From assembly GCA_913049915.1 (NCBI GenBank), contig CAJWZC010000018.1:1-49205 (forward strand): DNA of 49,205 bases, in the 5' to 3' direction. Position 1 is the stretch's first letter. Every line of letters begins with the position of its first letter. A program made the position numbers and the translations under genes. Shown here piece after piece: positions 31,054 through 37,414 of the stretch. The stretch is from an uncultured Colwellia sp. (GTDB taxonomy: Bacteria > Pseudomonadota > Gammaproteobacteria > Enterobacterales > Alteromonadaceae). Under the pieces are notes generated by a model. It ran no database searches, was not told the origin of the DNA, and saw only the letters and a list, made by a program, of their open reading frames with translations.

Positions 31054-32853
31054 ATGAAAAATATAATCACTTACCTAGTGTTTTTACTGATTAATATCGT
31101 CCAGATAAATTATAGTTATGCCAATAACTTAGTAGATAATAGTATTAATTCTGACCAACAATTAGCCAGTATTATCAAAGTTCATGAGCAATTTTATCTC
31201 AAATCAAGTCCTTTCAATCAGCCTAATATTGATAGTAATAACGCTAAGTTACCAGATTTTTCGGCTAATTCTCTACTCGTTAAGTACCAGCAAGGTTTGG
31301 TTATTTATCAGCAGTTAATCGCAATAGATATTGAAAAGTTAACACAAGAGAATCAGATTAACTTATCGGTACTTAGTTACAGCTTAAAAAATCAGTTAGA
31401 TAGTTATACCAATAAAGAACACTACATGCCACTCACTGCAGAGTCAGGCTTTCATGTTTGGATAGCAAATATTTCAAAGCAAGTCGATTTTAAAACCTAT
31501 ACAGATTATCAAGATTACCTAGCACGTCTATCAGCTCTTCCTCGATATTTTGACCAACAAACTCATTGGATGAAGTTAGGACTTGCCAGTGGTATTAGTC
31601 AGCCGAAAATAGTGCTTGAGGGATTTGAAAAATCTATTACTGCATATATAAAAGAGAATGTTACAGAAAGTTCTTATTATTTACCGTTTAGAAAAATGTC
31701 AGCTTTTATTACGCCGACTGAGAAAGGTGAGTTACAGCGACAAGCTAAGCATATTTTAACTACTAAAGTTATGCCCGCATATCATAGCTATTATGACTTT
31801 ATGGTGAATGAATATAAGCCAAATGCTCGTGATAATATTGCCGCTAGTTCTCTTCCTAATGGTAAAAGATACTATCAAAATAGGCTAAGACATTATACCA
31901 CGTTACCCTTAACGGCAATACAAGTTCACCAACAGGGATACACTGAAGTAAAGCGTATACGAGCCGAAATGGACAAAATTATTAAGCAAGTAAGTTTTGA
32001 TGGTAGCTTCAGTGATTTTGTACAATTTTTACGTACCGATCCTCAATTTTATGCTTCTACACCCACAGAACTATTAAAAGAAGCATCCTTTATTGCTAAA
32101 AAGATGGACGCCAAATTACCTACTCTATTTAAGACGTTACCCAGAACACCCTATGGTGTAATGGCTGTACCTGCTAATATAGCGCGTAAATATACAACGG
32201 GACGATATGCAGGTTCATCACGAGATGACCAACCAGGAAATTATTGGGTCAATACTTATAGATTAGATCGTCGACCACTTTATGTCTTAACGGCCCTGAC
32301 ACTTCATGAAGCTGTACCTGGCCATCACTTACAAATATCGTTAGCCAAAGAGATGAAGGATGTAGCAAAGTTTAGAAATAGAACCTACATATCTGCTTTT
32401 GGTGAAGGTTGGGGCTTGTATTCTGAATATCTAGGAATAGAGGCAGGTATGTATGAGGACCCTTACCATGACTTTGGTCGTTTGACCTATGAAATGTGGC
32501 GAGCTTGTCGCTTAGTTGTCGATACAGGAATACATACCCAAGGGTGGAGTCGTGCTAAAGCAATAGATTTTTTAGCGAGTAACACCGCATTGTCACTTCA
32601 TAATGTAAAAACGGAAATAGATCGTTATATCTCATGGCCGGGACAAGCTTTATCTTACAAAGTAGGTGAGTTAACGATTAAGCGTTTACGAAAAGAGGCG
32701 GAAAAAACTTTAGGTGGGGACTTTGATTTACGAGACTTTCATGATGAATTGTTGAAACGCGGCTCAATGCCATTATCTATGTTAGATAGAATAATAATGC
32801 ATTATATTAGTAAGAAGAAAACTCTTCATAATAAATTGAAACAAGCGCTGTAA
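31054..32853 (+). CDS. DUF885 family exported protein, putative metallopeptidase
   Basis: A 599-residue DUF885 protein with a signal peptide (cleavage after SYA, residue 23). The HEAVPGHHLQ motif near residue 421 and EGWGLYSEYLG about 30 residues later look like a zinc-peptidase site of the gluzincin kind. The C-terminal half (GQALSYKVGELTI) is typical for the family. Periplasmic or outer-membrane-facing, substrate unknown. The Shine-Dalgarno sequence is weak. The gene is followed by the riboswitch RNA on the opposite strand. Confidence 0.85.
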   Translation: MKNIITYLVFLLINIVQINYSYANNLVDNSINSDQQLASIIKVHEQFYLKSSPFNQPNIDSNNAKLPDFSANSLLVKYQQGLVIYQQLIAIDIEKLTQENQINLSVLSYSLKNQLDSYTNKEHYMPLTAESGFHVWIANISKQVDFKTYTDYQDYLARLSALPRYFDQQTHWMKLGLASGISQPKIVLEGFEKSITAYIKENVTESSYYLPFRKMSAFITPTEKGELQRQAKHILTTKVMPAYHSYYDFMVNEYKPNARDNIAASSLPNGKRYYQNRLRHYTTLPLTAIQVHQQGYTEVKRIRAEMDKIIKQVSFDGSFSDFVQFLRTDPQFYASTPTELLKEASFIAKKMDAKLPTLFKTLPRTPYGVMAVPANIARKYTTGRYAGSSRDDQPGNYWVNTYRLDRRPLYVLTALTLHEAVPGHHLQISLAKEMKDVAKFRNRTYISAFGEGWGLYSEYLGIEAGMYEDPYHDFGRLTYEMWRACRLVVDTGIHTQGWSRAKAIDFLASNTALSLHNVKTEIDRYISWPGQALSYKVGELTIKRLRKEAEKTLGGDFDLRDFHDELLKRGSMPLSMLDRIIMHYISKKKTLHNKLKQAL

Positions 32854-32949
32854 CTTATTTTAGAAAGTGTCGGGTACATAAATACTGTTTTAGACGTTAG
32901 TGATATAAATAATGATGAGTGCTTTTAAGAAGTAAGTAAATCAGTAAAT

Positions 32950-33030
32950 AAAAAAGGGAGGGGCGACGCAAAGAAAACGGAAGAAACAGATAGTGAATTA
33001 TCGAATTAAGATAAGCCCCCACTATATCTA
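32950..33030 (-). terminator. Expression platform/terminator-like 3' end of the riboswitch RNA
   Basis: On the minus strand, after the aptamer come GGGGGC (33015-33020), a nested hairpin built on ATAGTG/CACTAT and TTATC/GATAA, then CTTTGCGTC (32965-32973), GCCCCTCCC and six T (32950-32955). GCCCC can pair with GGGGGC to end the RNA at the T run. CTTTGCGTC is a perfect complement of GACGCAAAG inside the aptamer, as expected of a switching helix. Confidence 0.65.
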
Positions 33031-33116
33031 AACTTGGCAGTCCCGCTATCATAGGTTTCCCTTTAGACCGGTAACTTTGCGTCTCTAATTTTCACTAGAT
33101 TTGCCCTTAGCAAGCT
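33031..33116 (-). ncRNA. c-di-GMP-I (GEMM-I) riboswitch aptamer, no gene downstream
   Basis: Minus-strand sequence fits the GEMM-I consensus (Vibrio Vc2 type). Closing stem AGCTTG (33111-33116) / CAAGTT (33031-33036); AGGGCAAA; a perfect 6-bp stem TCTAGT/ATTAGA around a GAAA tetraloop (33084-33099); GACGCAAAG (33075-33083); ACCGGTCTAAA; and ATAGCGGGACTGCC near the 3' end. These RNAs bind cyclic di-GMP in a three-way junction. Transcription from the promoter at 33136-33163 would give about 180 bases. No open reading frame follows on this strand; the RNA runs into the 3' end of the opposite-strand DUF885 gene. Confidence 0.85.
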
Positions 33117-33135
33117 ATAAAGCTTAGCTAACAAT

Positions 33136-33163
33136 ATTATAGGATGAATTTGATAAATGTAAA
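33136..33163 (-). promoter_or_regulatory. Promoter of the riboswitch RNA
   Basis: Minus-strand -35 TTTACA (33158-33163), 16-base spacer, perfect -10 TATAAT (33136-33141). Predicted start near 33129, about 13 bases before the aptamer. Confidence 0.75.
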
Positions 33164-33256
33164 CAAAAAATACTATTTTTTGTTTATCTTTTGGAAGGTC
33201 AATACAGTAATGAGTAATGTTCAATTGTATTTTATTCAATAACTAACGGTATTAAT

Positions 33257-35167
33257 ATGATGAAAAAACGGTTGTTTCAGTTGATAAAATTTACTTTTAA
33301 AGTGTATTTATTGTCTCTTCTTGTAGTGAGTACCTCTATGGCACAGTTATCCTCTGAGCAAGCCGTACTTAGTAATCAAGTAGAAGAATTATTAAAAGTA
33401 AATGATGAAATAGTTGATATTGAGACGGTTAAATCTCTGTTAGAAAAAATACTGAATAATAGGGAATATTACTCAAATGATATTCTCGCCAAAGTTTATT
33501 TACTCTCTGCAAGGGGTGCTAGTAATCAAGGAGATATCAATAACGTTTTAGAATTTTCTCAAAAAGGTTTAACAGCTAATAGTTTAGATAAAAAAATTCA
33601 ATTAGCATTATTACTGAAATTAGCCGATGTATATGTTGCCAGAAAGCAACATCAGAAATTGCTTGAACTGACTCAAATAGCGGTAAAAAATAGTGAGCTG
33701 TCAGGTAGTATTAAATATCAATTACTTTCGCTGAGTTATCGCAGCGTCGCTTTTGCAATGTTAGGAATGCACCAACGGGCTTTAGCTGATTTACAGAAAG
33801 TTGAGCAGGGTATCAGCAAAAGTGAATTGACAGAGCATATTGATTTATTAACGACTTTAGCTTTGGCTTATCATCATTTAGGTGATTTTCAAACATCAAG
33901 AATAATGCAATTAAATATATTAAAATTAAGTGTTGAGATGGGACGAAAAAGAAATGTTGCTCAAACTTATTTATACTTAGGATGTGCTTATTTTTACTTG
34001 CAACGTTTTGATGATGCATATAATGCCTTTTGGGAGTCTAAAAAATATGCTGAAAATAAAGGGGCTTCTATTCATGTTGCTTACGCAGATAAATGGTTAG
34101 GTATAGTTCTAATAGCACAAGATCAATTTCATGAAGCAATTGTGCCATTACAGCAAGCAATTGATATATATAAGCAACATAATATGCTTGCTGATCGTAT
34201 AGAAAGTTCTGTGGCTTTAGTAAAAGCGAAGCTAGGTATTAAAAAAATAACTGAAGGTTATACTTTATTGACAGGAATAGTACAGCTTCTTGATGGTAAG
34301 GATATTTCATTAGATTTTTCAGGGTTTTATCGAATGGTTGCTGAAATGCACTTCGCGCAAAATAATTATCAATTAGCGTATCGTTGGCGCGAAAAATATA
34401 GTCAAGTATTACTTGATAAGATCAATCATAAGAAAAAAGCTTCCCTTATAGCACCAAGCCTCTCTCAGCTATTTTTAAGTCAGGTAACCCAAATTGAACC
34501 CATTGAAGAATCAAAAAGGTTAATAGTTAAATTGGCGGAAACCAGTGAGTTATCAGTTAGCTTTGTTGGAAAGTATAAAAAACAACGAGTCATCATCATA
34601 AGTTTGTCGGTATTAGTCTTTGTCTTACTACTCACCTTAGTGGGCTTCTTTTTGAGACTAAGAGCACAGAAAATGAAGCTGGCCTATGAGGAAATTGAAA
34701 AGCCAACTTATGTTATAGCTACGCCCATTCAAACAAAGTGTAATTATCAATTAGTCTTTCACAAGGCAAGGAAATTTAACTACCCTCTCAATGTCGGTTA
34801 TCTTATTATAGATAATCTTCAGGAGCTCTCTTTTCACCTCAATAAAAAAAGTATTACTGAGGTGACTAAAGAAATCGCTAGTCTTATTAATGATCACATC
34901 ACTGAATTTGATTATGCGGGCTTGTTAAATGAAGGAGAGTATTTGTTATTATTTGAGCACCAACGTAGTCAAGAAACTAGTATAAAGCTCGATAATCTGG
35001 TGCAAGCTATAAATACCAGAGCCTTTGTCACTCTGGGCGATTTTTCAGTAACGATGAAATACTCGTTAAATACACCTAGTTTTAAAGATATCGATCCATA
35101 TCTATTTTTGGCCCGCATTGCTGAATCTGTTAATATTAAAAAAGTTAACCAGTCTAAGGTAATTTAA
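33257..35167 (+). CDS. TPR membrane protein with degenerate GGDEF domain
   Basis: A 636-residue protein: signal peptide or anchor (about residues 9-29), periplasmic tetratricopeptide-like repeats (about 60-390), one membrane segment (about 448-470) and a cytoplasmic domain of about 150 residues. That domain aligns with GGDEF, but the signature is NEGEY (558-562) and the other substrate residues are missing, so diguanylate cyclase activity is not expected. The layout resembles TPR-GGDEF receptors common in Alteromonadales. The stop overlaps the next start by one base (TAATG), showing translational coupling. Divergent from the c-di-GMP riboswitch RNA. Ribosome binding site weak. Confidence 0.75.
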   Translation: MMKKRLFQLIKFTFKVYLLSLLVVSTSMAQLSSEQAVLSNQVEELLKVNDEIVDIETVKSLLEKILNNREYYSNDILAKVYLLSARGASNQGDINNVLEFSQKGLTANSLDKKIQLALLLKLADVYVARKQHQKLLELTQIAVKNSELSGSIKYQLLSLSYRSVAFAMLGMHQRALADLQKVEQGISKSELTEHIDLLTTLALAYHHLGDFQTSRIMQLNILKLSVEMGRKRNVAQTYLYLGCAYFYLQRFDDAYNAFWESKKYAENKGASIHVAYADKWLGIVLIAQDQFHEAIVPLQQAIDIYKQHNMLADRIESSVALVKAKLGIKKITEGYTLLTGIVQLLDGKDISLDFSGFYRMVAEMHFAQNNYQLAYRWREKYSQVLLDKINHKKKASLIAPSLSQLFLSQVTQIEPIEESKRLIVKLAETSELSVSFVGKYKKQRVIIISLSVLVFVLLLTLVGFFLRLRAQKMKLAYEEIEKPTYVIATPIQTKCNYQLVFHKARKFNYPLNVGYLIIDNLQELSFHLNKKSITEVTKEIASLINDHITEFDYAGLLNEGEYLLLFEHQRSQETSIKLDNLVQAINTRAFVTLGDFSVTMKYSLNTPSFKDIDPYLFLARIAESVNIKKVNQSKVI

Positions 35168-35709: not shown

Positions 35710-35806
35710 GATAACAGCTTCATAATTTGTTATATCTGTACAAAAGCACGTATTTTTATTAGGCTAGGCTATTACTTTGATTAGATTTCCTAGGATGGGG
35801 ATATAT

Positions 35807-37414
35807 ATGAATCGTTTTAACGCCAAGTACATTTTATTATTTATTATGCTTATTGTTGGTCTATCTACACTGTTTGCCAAACATTATAGTGAAAGTTTTC
35901 CGTTTAGTTTGGCCGCTATTATTGGTTATCTTGTAACGGTTGTTACCACGACTGTAGTTTCTCTGTTATTTATTCAAAAATCACTCAGCCCAACTGCTTT
36001 AAAGACTAATACTGACATTATTAGTGCTGAAGATTTATTTTCTTATACCCATGACCCTGCAACAAATTTACCAACAGCACAGCAAGCTCAAAAAACTTTT
36101 GAAGCTGCTATTAAGTCTGATACTGGACAACGTTATGCTGCCGTAGTTTTTAAGCCAGTTAATTTTCAACAGGTAAATAGTTTACTGGGTCATCATAATT
36201 CTGACTTATTATTATTGCAGCTTGCGTACTGTTTACAACAAAAAATATCGGATAATACAAGTTTATTAAGCTTTGGCTTTAGTCCAGAGCCTGTCCGTAT
36301 TGCCCGTTTGCAAAGCTTACAGTTTTTGGTGATATATAATTTAACGGATAGTCGTTTTGATGATGAGATTATGCTTGATGAGGTATGTCATCAATTAGCT
36401 GATGCTGTGCCTGATGCTATGAGTTTTAAGAGCTTTTCTTTAAATTTTGAACTTGTTTTTGGTATCGCAATTTCGGGTGTACATGGTGATAACTTTGATG
36501 AAATTATCGCCCATGCAGGTGATGCTTTACTTCACGCTTCAAAGACACAACAACAAATTAATTATTTTGATAAAAGTAGTGTTTTATATAACCAAAGTGA
36601 GTTGGCCCGTATAGAGGCGCTACGTCATGATATTAAAGAAGATAAGTTATTCTACTATCTACAACCTCAAGTAAATATTAATAATCACAACGTTATAGGT
36701 TTCCAATTAAGGGTTAATTGGTATGAAAATGAGTTGACGAAACCAGTAGAGTTGTTTGACTTTTCTTATCTTGCTGAACATAGTGGCGAGTTATATTTAT
36801 TGACAAAACAGATGTTGACAGTCGCATTTTTAACTCTTAATAGTTTACATGAAATTGGAGTATATCAACGCATATCTGTAACGTTGTCGAGTGCAAGTTT
36901 GTTTGAAGTAGATCTGGTTGACTTTATCGAACAACAATTACAAAAATATAATATTTCAGGTAAATATTTAATGATTGAACTGAGTGAAAAAGTAATGCTT
37001 AGTGCGAGTAATAGAGTCAAAGTAATTATTGATCAGCTTAAATCATTTGATATAAATATTTCTATCACTAACTTTTCAGGTAGTTATGAATCATTACGTT
37101 ATGTAAGGAAAATGGCAATTCATCAACTTAAAATCAATTGCCAGCAATTAACTAACGATAGTAGTAATCGAGTTGATAAAGCAATAACAAATGCACTTGT
37201 TACGTTGACTCGAAGTATGAAAATCCCACTTATTGGCACGCACATTGATAGGCATGAAGCTTCAGAAGCTTATATAGCCATGGGTGGAAAGCTAATTCAA
37301 GGTGATATTATTCATCCAGGTGTAGTACCTGATGAAATCGAAATATGGTTAGAAAAATGGTACTTACAGCATCCTGAATCAATACCTCCTGAAGCACGAC
37401 CTTCGATATATTAA
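35807..37414 (+). CDS. Membrane protein with degenerate GGDEF and EAL domains
   Basis: A 535-residue protein from ATG 35807, which has GGGG seven bases upstream; the frame opens earlier at TTG 35777. Two membrane segments (about residues 6-24 and 33-57) precede a GGDEF-like domain with RLQSLQF in place of RxGGDEF (about 167-173). The EAL-like domain that follows has QLR for EAL (300-302), ELSEK for the ExTE(N) site and TNFSGS for DDFGTG (421-426). Both active sites are lost, so it is presumably a binding or scaffold protein, in the manner of LapD or CsrD, though not clearly an orthologue of either. It follows the coupled pair by about 100 bases. Confidence 0.8.
   Translation: MNRFNAKYILLFIMLIVGLSTLFAKHYSESFPFSLAAIIGYLVTVVTTTVVSLLFIQKSLSPTALKTNTDIISAEDLFSYTHDPATNLPTAQQAQKTFEAAIKSDTGQRYAAVVFKPVNFQQVNSLLGHHNSDLLLLQLAYCLQQKISDNTSLLSFGFSPEPVRIARLQSLQFLVIYNLTDSRFDDEIMLDEVCHQLADAVPDAMSFKSFSLNFELVFGIAISGVHGDNFDEIIAHAGDALLHASKTQQQINYFDKSSVLYNQSELARIEALRHDIKEDKLFYYLQPQVNINNHNVIGFQLRVNWYENELTKPVELFDFSYLAEHSGELYLLTKQMLTVAFLTLNSLHEIGVYQRISVTLSSASLFEVDLVDFIEQQLQKYNISGKYLMIELSEKVMLSASNRVKVIIDQLKSFDINISITNFSGSYESLRYVRKMAIHQLKINCQQLTNDSSNRVDKAITNALVTLTRSMKIPLIGTHIDRHEASEAYIAMGGKLIQGDIIHPGVVPDEIEIWLEKWYLQHPESIPPEARPSIY

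Follow-up and report, generated by a model that had tools for sequence, protein, structure and literature searches.

A selected, stand-alone RNA of the Colwelliaceae with a c-di-GMP-I aptamer and a probable function in trans

A stretch of DNA of 49,205 nucleotides from an uncultured Colwellia sp. (assembly GCA_913049915.1, contig CAJWZC010000018.1; hereafter, the window) carries a c-di-GMP-I aptamer inside what appears to be a conserved noncoding RNA gene and not an mRNA leader. Riboswitches are usually regarded as leaders of genes. Comparison of this locus with its relatives points to an RNA that is under selection, stands alone, and is probably responsive to c-di-GMP and trans-acting. We put at roughly 0.6 the probability of the full reading, namely a conserved noncoding RNA gene in which aptamer and platform form a two-state device switched by c-di-GMP, with an output in trans.

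An Rfam scan of the whole window returned a single match at the gathering threshold, the c-di-GMP-I (GEMM-I) family RF01051, at 33033–33115 on the minus strand (76.9 bits versus a gathering score of 35; E = 1.8e-13), spanning the full model (positions 1–87). It is preceded by a promoter (33136–33163, minus strand) built of TTTACA (33163–33158), a 16-nt spacer, and TATAAT (33141–33136), i.e., 11 of 12 consensus bases. The count of promoter-like sites around the RNA is by itself within chance (five found versus 4.5 expected); the promoter call nevertheless stands because identical hexamers at the same spacing precede the RNA in 66 of the 74 complete copies introduced below. With the transcription start placed from the position of this promoter, the RNA would be about 170–180 nt long; it has a 5′ terminal hairpin at 33109–33129 (minus strand; core stem 33112–33125). 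No minus-strand gene lies behind the RNA in the window, where the next gene is a convergent DUF885 gene ending at 32853. An earlier note, made from the letters of the window, had described a full GEMM-I aptamer on the minus strand, a near-perfect promoter, and the absence of a gene behind them, and all three descriptions hold. The aptamer of the window does not sit in the 5′ leader of a gene that it could control, as a cis-acting riboswitch would. An own promoter combined with the lack of a conserved downstream ORF, the arrangement of a merRNA-like RNA, is found in the window and its clade but not at 16 loci where a GGDEF gene follows the RNA.

Of the 74 copies, 73, among them that of the window, have a G at the position that we take to be G20, where a G presumably separates c-di-GMP from cGAMP types. 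One copy (L067, genome G010) is naturally decayed, with a C at this position, a weaker promoter hexamer (TTTATA), and an aptamer score of 55.8 bits; its GGDEF gene is still there, about 2 kb on. At L024, L041, L051, L052, L053, and L068, an A replaces the second G of GGGC in the 5′ strand of the aptamer, which we take to be a mark of cGAMP-type GEMM-Ib riboswitches.

RF01051 matches occur in 78 of the 118 genomes searched, counting the window's own. Within the genus, 38 of 39 genomes (again including the window's) have the RNA, the exception being G017, which lacks any RF01051 match. Sorting of the first 73 loci yielded 48 copies of the RNA, 46 of them recognized by RF01051 plus the neighboring TPR gene and two (L016 and L065) added by eye. 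All 46 loci chosen without reference to the loop described below carry that loop (46/46), and the 48 copies have TAGTGGGGGCT behind the aptamer in common. The 25 other aptamer loci among these 73 all have a same-strand frame that is 70 aa or longer and starts no more than 310 nt away; none has the conserved 3′ domain with its invariant loop, and TAGTGGGGGCT is found at 0 of 25. The window genome itself holds two more c-di-GMP-I matches, L002 (G000:C68) and L003 (G000:C47), each with a same-strand frame close behind, of 134 codons in the first case and long and lipoprotein-like in the second.

A search with a pattern built on this shared sequence, in a collection that represents 84,980 species by a single genome each, gave 68 stretches, in genomes named Colwellia, Cognaticolwellia, Thalassotalea, Litorilituus, and Thalassomonas, genera that NCBI places in the Colwelliaceae, as well as in MAGs labeled Alteromonadaceae. 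One match labeled Endozoicomonas is the same as L004, and one labeled Chloroflexi (L099) was dropped as a chance match, having neither the promoter nor CUUUGC. Removal of duplicates and of the chance match left 76 distinct loci, 74 of them with a complete aptamer; L097 and L118, whose aptamers are cut by contig ends, are outside the 74-copy counts, and rows L093, L095, and L141 of the 74-copy alignment are incomplete at the 3′ end. The strict pattern occurs in 53 of 196 genomes of the window's family group, and a model of the 3′ domain, applied to the best 10 candidates per genome, finds at least 10 of 394 genomes of the order, all within that family group. The RNA is kept, mostly at one locus, across the Colwelliaceae.

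Behind the aptamer, the RNA is built of a loop hairpin and a strand complementary to the aptamer. The hairpin, AGAUA-UAGUGGGGGCU-UAUCU (33009–33029, minus strand), exposes an 11-nt loop (33014–33024) that is identical in 74 of 74 copies, on a stem that has changed on both sides at three of its five pairs. The same is true of three of five pairs in the 5′ hairpin and of five of six pairs in aptamer helix P1b. On the tree, the replacement of A-U by G-C in the loop stem traces to a single event. In G060, a divergent copy (inspected by eye) has the same loop on a different stem and keeps CUUUGC. A loop that stays constant on a stem that covaries is consistent with a binding site. The adjoining 3′ strand (32966–33008, minus strand) ends in CUUUGCGU (32973–32966), which is complementary to the aptamer core ACGCAAAG. 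Predicted pairing probabilities lay this strand along the 3′ half of the aptamer, with CUUUGCGU opposite ACGCAAAG, so that the predicted ligand-free fold is a rod burying the aptamer in 74 of 74 copies. In every one of the 74, this anti-aptamer fold surpasses the aptamer fold in stability, by a mean of 13.9 kcal/mol at 37 °C and 17.2 kcal/mol at 10 °C, in energies computed without ligand, pseudoknots, or cotranscriptional folding. RNAalifold alone pairs CUUUG with the 5′ flank of the aptamer instead, an alternative that would likewise compete with ligand binding.

When the rod is given as the structure, its pairs are formed in 84.2% of cells, versus at most 46.1% when it is slid. The observed values were reached by 14 of 500 shuffles for doubly changed pairs and by 42 of 500 for pair types. 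On the tree, columns 133/206 provide four independent pairs (2.6 the same way, 0.1 the opposite way) and columns 143/196 provide seven (1.1 the same way, 0.3 the opposite way, the rest not differing). Tree-aware support for covariation of the rod is at most suggestive; the core anti-aptamer pairs cannot covary because they hardly vary.

The letters of the window also contain a GGGGGC...GCCCC pairing followed by six T, which had been described as terminator-like. The GC pairing and the T run are there; against a terminator, the pairing would enclose about 50 nt, a terminator scan of 32600–33500 detected no intrinsic terminator (0 sites), and the T run is not conserved, as 28 of 74 copies have an unbroken run of five or more T within the following 60 nt. 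The terminator as first described is doubtful. What is conserved at the 3′ side is CUUUGCGU followed by a pyrimidine tract, with 98% pyrimidine at +10 to +14 from the start of CUUUGC in the 74 copies. In the window, the tract GCCCCUCCC and the six T after it (32950–32964, minus strand) are a possible RNA 3′ end and a possible partner of the GGGGGC loop. In the 74-copy alignment, the ~70 nt behind the RNA are poor in G and richer in C. A 51-aa minus-strand frame (32897–33052) begins inside the aptamer; with its ATG in only 54 of 74 copies and a length varying from 7 to 73 codons, it was rejected as a conserved gene. A coding function for the RNA was rejected too, as none of the 74 copies has a frame that stays open from one end of the RNA to the other.

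Read in the direction of the RNA, the locus consists of a divergent TPR protein gene, the RNA, a convergent DUF885 gene, and a same-strand GGDEF gene, of the c-di-GMP synthase type, the last two being present at some loci only; in Colwellia loci where the examined stretch reaches that far, orn comes next, on the strand opposite to the RNA. The TPR gene (33257–35167, plus strand, in the window) lies outside the RNA and is found at 71 of the 74 loci with enough upstream sequence. The DUF885 gene (31054–32853, plus strand, in the window), likewise outside the RNA, is found at 57 of 76 loci, between 78 and 547 nt away from the RNA. At the other 19 loci, what follows the RNA is an immediately adjacent same-strand GGDEF gene (16 loci), orn (L037 and L048), or a helicase gene with the orientation of the RNA (L129). 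At least 25 of the 76 loci have a GGDEF gene on the same strand ~2 kb on, beyond DUF885. Loci were accordingly assigned to classes D (16, GGDEF gene directly behind), I (25, DUF885 between), and O (20); the other 15 of the 76 fall outside these classes within the examined stretch, and genome coordinates put four of them in class I. No TPR gene was detected beside the RNA at L113, L115, L129, and L172. Each neighbor is therefore dispensable, which argues against a purely cis role. In G018 (C26, L173), the RNA stands between phosphoglycerate-dehydrogenase-like and helicase-like frames (named by eye), away from the TPR, DUF885, and GGDEF genes, with the GGDEF gene on another contig; this genome is a MAG, and misassembly is possible. 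Beyond the TPR gene, the window has a gene with GGDEF and EAL domains (35777–37414, plus strand; PF00990, E = 3.1e-12; PF00563, E = 2.2e-34), which makes the locus rich in c-di-GMP-type genes.

The GGDEF gene of the locus was detected in at least 32 of 118 genomes and at least 18 of 39 genus genomes, with the best 18 candidates per genome scored. Its GGDEF motif is variable (i.e., SGGDEF, SAGDEF, SGHDEF, FNYDEF, and others), and several of the proteins are therefore probably inactive as enzymes. Where present, the gene is often preceded by CACTTT-N12-TAGAGAAT, which is promoter-like but not of the usual sigma-70 form. Under a strict score, this motif occurs at 20 of 41 loci versus 4 of 820 mononucleotide shuffles, made up of 9 of 25 displaced and 11 of 16 adjacent loci, the latter count not being independent because the motif was derived by eye from the adjacent loci. 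Several displaced loci have TAGAGAAT with a different upstream hexamer. A full-score motif 55–73 nt before the first aligned GGDEF codon was seen at L018, L077, L081, L083, L086, L110, L118, and L133.

Every candidate was scored in the genomes of the window's clade with the L045 protein as query, and a GGDEF orthologue was absent from 20 of 20; the remainder in six of them is a paralogue of 25–27% identity. The same search recovered the orthologue in G018 and G028, as expected. These 20 genus genomes, with the RNA and without the GGDEF gene, form one branch with local support of 1.0 in a midpoint-rooted FastTree of the TPR protein, and their sister is L045, in which the GGDEF gene is right behind the RNA. 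A second lineage with the RNA and no GGDEF orthologue is G046 (L140), and DUF885 has been lost too at L037 and L048. With the GGDEF gene directly behind the RNA at 16 of 76 loci, the orphan state of the window RNA is probably derived. The earlier note had held that close relatives with a gene right behind the aptamer would mark the RNA as a relic of a deletion. The first half of this is borne out by the 16 loci; against the second, the RNA has not decayed, and the GGDEF gene has its own promoter-like motif at 20 of 41 loci. From these comparisons, we read the window RNA as a former neighbor of a GGDEF gene and not as a decaying relic.

Divergence within the clade without the GGDEF gene tells how the RNA has been maintained. 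Among the 20 genomes, the mean pairwise difference is 3.2% for the aptamer and 6.0% for the whole RNA, while fourfold sites of the TPR gene differ by 57% (residues by 36%) and those of DUF885 by 54% (17 loci). The loop hairpin differs by 1.3% and CUUUGCGU by 0; values are higher for the 3′ strand of the rod (10%), the 5′ hairpin (22%), and the pyrimidine tract (38%). All 20 genomes have the same promoter hexamers at the same spacing, with a spacer that differs by 27% on average, and the stretch just behind the RNA differs by 47%. A mutational cold spot is an unlikely cause of the low divergence because the flanks diverge. Taken against fourfold sites, the 6.0% of the RNA indicates that it is under purifying selection in genomes that have no GGDEF gene. 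The free-standing RNA first proposed from the window alone is in this respect supported: the RNA is conserved family-wide, and these 20 genomes have retained it.

In the mechanism that we favor, the RNA would be transcribed and switched by c-di-GMP, with the aptamer fused to its own expression platform. In the absence of ligand, the 3′ half would pair with the aptamer to form a rod with the UAGUGGGGGCU hairpin at its tip; if c-di-GMP binds while the RNA is being transcribed, the aptamer would stay folded and the 3′ strand (CUUUGCGU and the pyrimidine tract) would remain unpaired. The output in trans would come about when the invariant loop, or else the 3′ strand once set free, touches a protein or an RNA, and in the window's clade the RNA would have outlived the neighboring GGDEF gene. 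A more specific version, a Colwelliaceae family of independent genes for c-di-GMP-gated trans RNAs that alternate between rod and open form and engage a protein or mRNA through the loop or 3′ strand, is offered tentatively, with the odds somewhat against it. A trans target bearing the full 11-nt complement of the loop was sought in the 39 genus genomes and rejected, as no such site is conserved outside the RNA itself. The complement occurs in 39 of 39 genomes, in 38 of them in the RNA itself, at the same place as the RF01051 match, and in G017 at one other site. In the window genome, it is found only in the RNA; some other genomes have extra sites, and the ten that were read all lie in differing contexts.

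An abundant RNA might instead soak up c-di-GMP as a store or sponge, with no target. The conserved consensus promoter and 5′ hairpin would suit such a role, as would the lack of a downstream gene in the window and the precedent of merRNA, in the passages of its description that bear on this point (PMC3627812). A sponge needs only an aptamer, yet in the clade the loop hairpin (1.3%) and CUUUGCGU (0) differ less than the aptamer (3.2%), and the conservation of these two elements argues against a pure sponge; to judge from the fold energies, the anti-aptamer strand would also lower the affinity. The conserved parts outside the aptamer favor regulation over mere buffering, and we regard the sponge as unlikely.

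We consider it unlikely that the RNA is an antisense-acting riboswitch, in which c-di-GMP would control read-through into DUF885 or else a long transcript running antisense through DUF885 and in the sense direction through the GGDEF gene beyond it. The orientation fits, Rho might act on the G-poor, C-richer ~70 nt that follow the RNA, and a 2023 survey, in the portion that treats the subject, names c-di-GMP riboswitches as the family most prone to antisense position (PMC9943018). An antisense riboswitch implies a conserved convergent target gene, and DUF885 is present at only 57 of 76 loci, its place being taken by orn at L037 and L048 and by the own-strand helicase gene at L129, while the GGDEF gene has its own promoter-like motif at 20 of 41 loci. 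The suggestion that the RNA is antisense to the DUF885 mRNA end was for these reasons (gene not found at 19 of 76 loci, distance varying from 78 to 547 nt) rejected as a conserved role.

Two further readings involve the other neighbors. Back-to-back promoters could let transcription of the RNA tune expression of the divergent TPR gene, making the RNA a cis element of that gene. The TPR gene is divergent and adjacent at 71 of 74 loci, and the C-termini of two of six TPR homologues, L072 (E = 0.0024) and L090 (E = 4.9e-5), have weak GGDEF-like Pfam matches. Both matches fall below the curated Pfam cut-off, and at the thresholds used the window's own protein and the remaining four homologues had none; the C-terminus may be a degenerate GGDEF domain. 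A cis element of this kind would leave the conserved RNA structure unexplained, and the RNA is retained at the four loci with no detected adjoining TPR gene; we regard this reading as unlikely. That the RNA is a now functionless leader riboswitch of a deleted GGDEF gene is the least probable of all and was rejected for the window's clade: the gene is right behind the RNA at 16 of 76 loci, behind DUF885 at 25 or more, and absent from the clade, and one decayed copy exists (G010/L067), but the promoter hexamers and an aptamer with very few changes are retained in 20 of 20 clade genomes, against a fourfold-site difference of 57%. At the 16 loci, the RNA might control the GGDEF gene in cis.

The RNA resembles the c-di-GMP-I riboswitches of RF01051 in aptamer sequence and fold and in the G at the G20-equivalent, and differs from them in having no gene behind it in the window and a conserved 3′ domain of its own with an invariant loop. 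In kind, its closest precedent by analogy is merRNA of Bdellovibrio bacteriovorus, described in the relevant passages of PMC3627812 as a stand-alone RNA of 445 nt that contains a c-di-GMP riboswitch and has no conserved downstream ORF, without conservation outside Bdellovibrio, and proposed by its authors to store c-di-GMP. The comparison covers the aptamer and the gene-free state. Unlike the 445-nt merRNA, reported from Bdellovibrio only, the Colwelliaceae RNA is ~170–180 nt, family-wide, and has a traceable gene history; with merRNA confined to one genus in that account, selection on it cannot be read from distant relatives. In mode of action, EutX and Rli55 are the closest analogues: the parts of PMC7602753 that concern them present small RNAs under a B12 riboswitch that sequester EutV, with riboswitch and protein-binding element within one sRNA unit. 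An aptamer and a separate recognition element in one RNA are also what the favored model proposes. These RNAs differ in ligand and hosts and in having a known protein partner, and their ligand stops synthesis of the sRNA, whereas the Colwelliaceae platform would refold the RNA instead. The antisense-acting riboswitches of the survey, as far as its pertinent sections describe them, are like our RNA in that the aptamer lies where a convergent gene has its 3′ end (PMC9943018); at the Colwelliaceae locus, in contrast, the convergent gene is exchangeable or missing and the RNA stays. For Colwellia, those sections mention one gene of unknown function, in Colwellia sp. PAMC 21821. The open-licence literature, as distinct from subscription papers and supplementary tables, yielded no description of the Colwelliaceae RNA.

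In that same literature, as represented by the portions of it consulted, merRNA is the one gene-free c-di-GMP riboswitch RNA found described. The Colwelliaceae add a comparison across a family, in which the GGDEF gene lies behind the RNA, is displaced from it, or, in one clade, is missing altogether, and the RNA is kept in all three settings. Whether a second-messenger aptamer can act as a free RNA is a question that can be put to a direct test in Colwellia, where natural variants would serve as controls.
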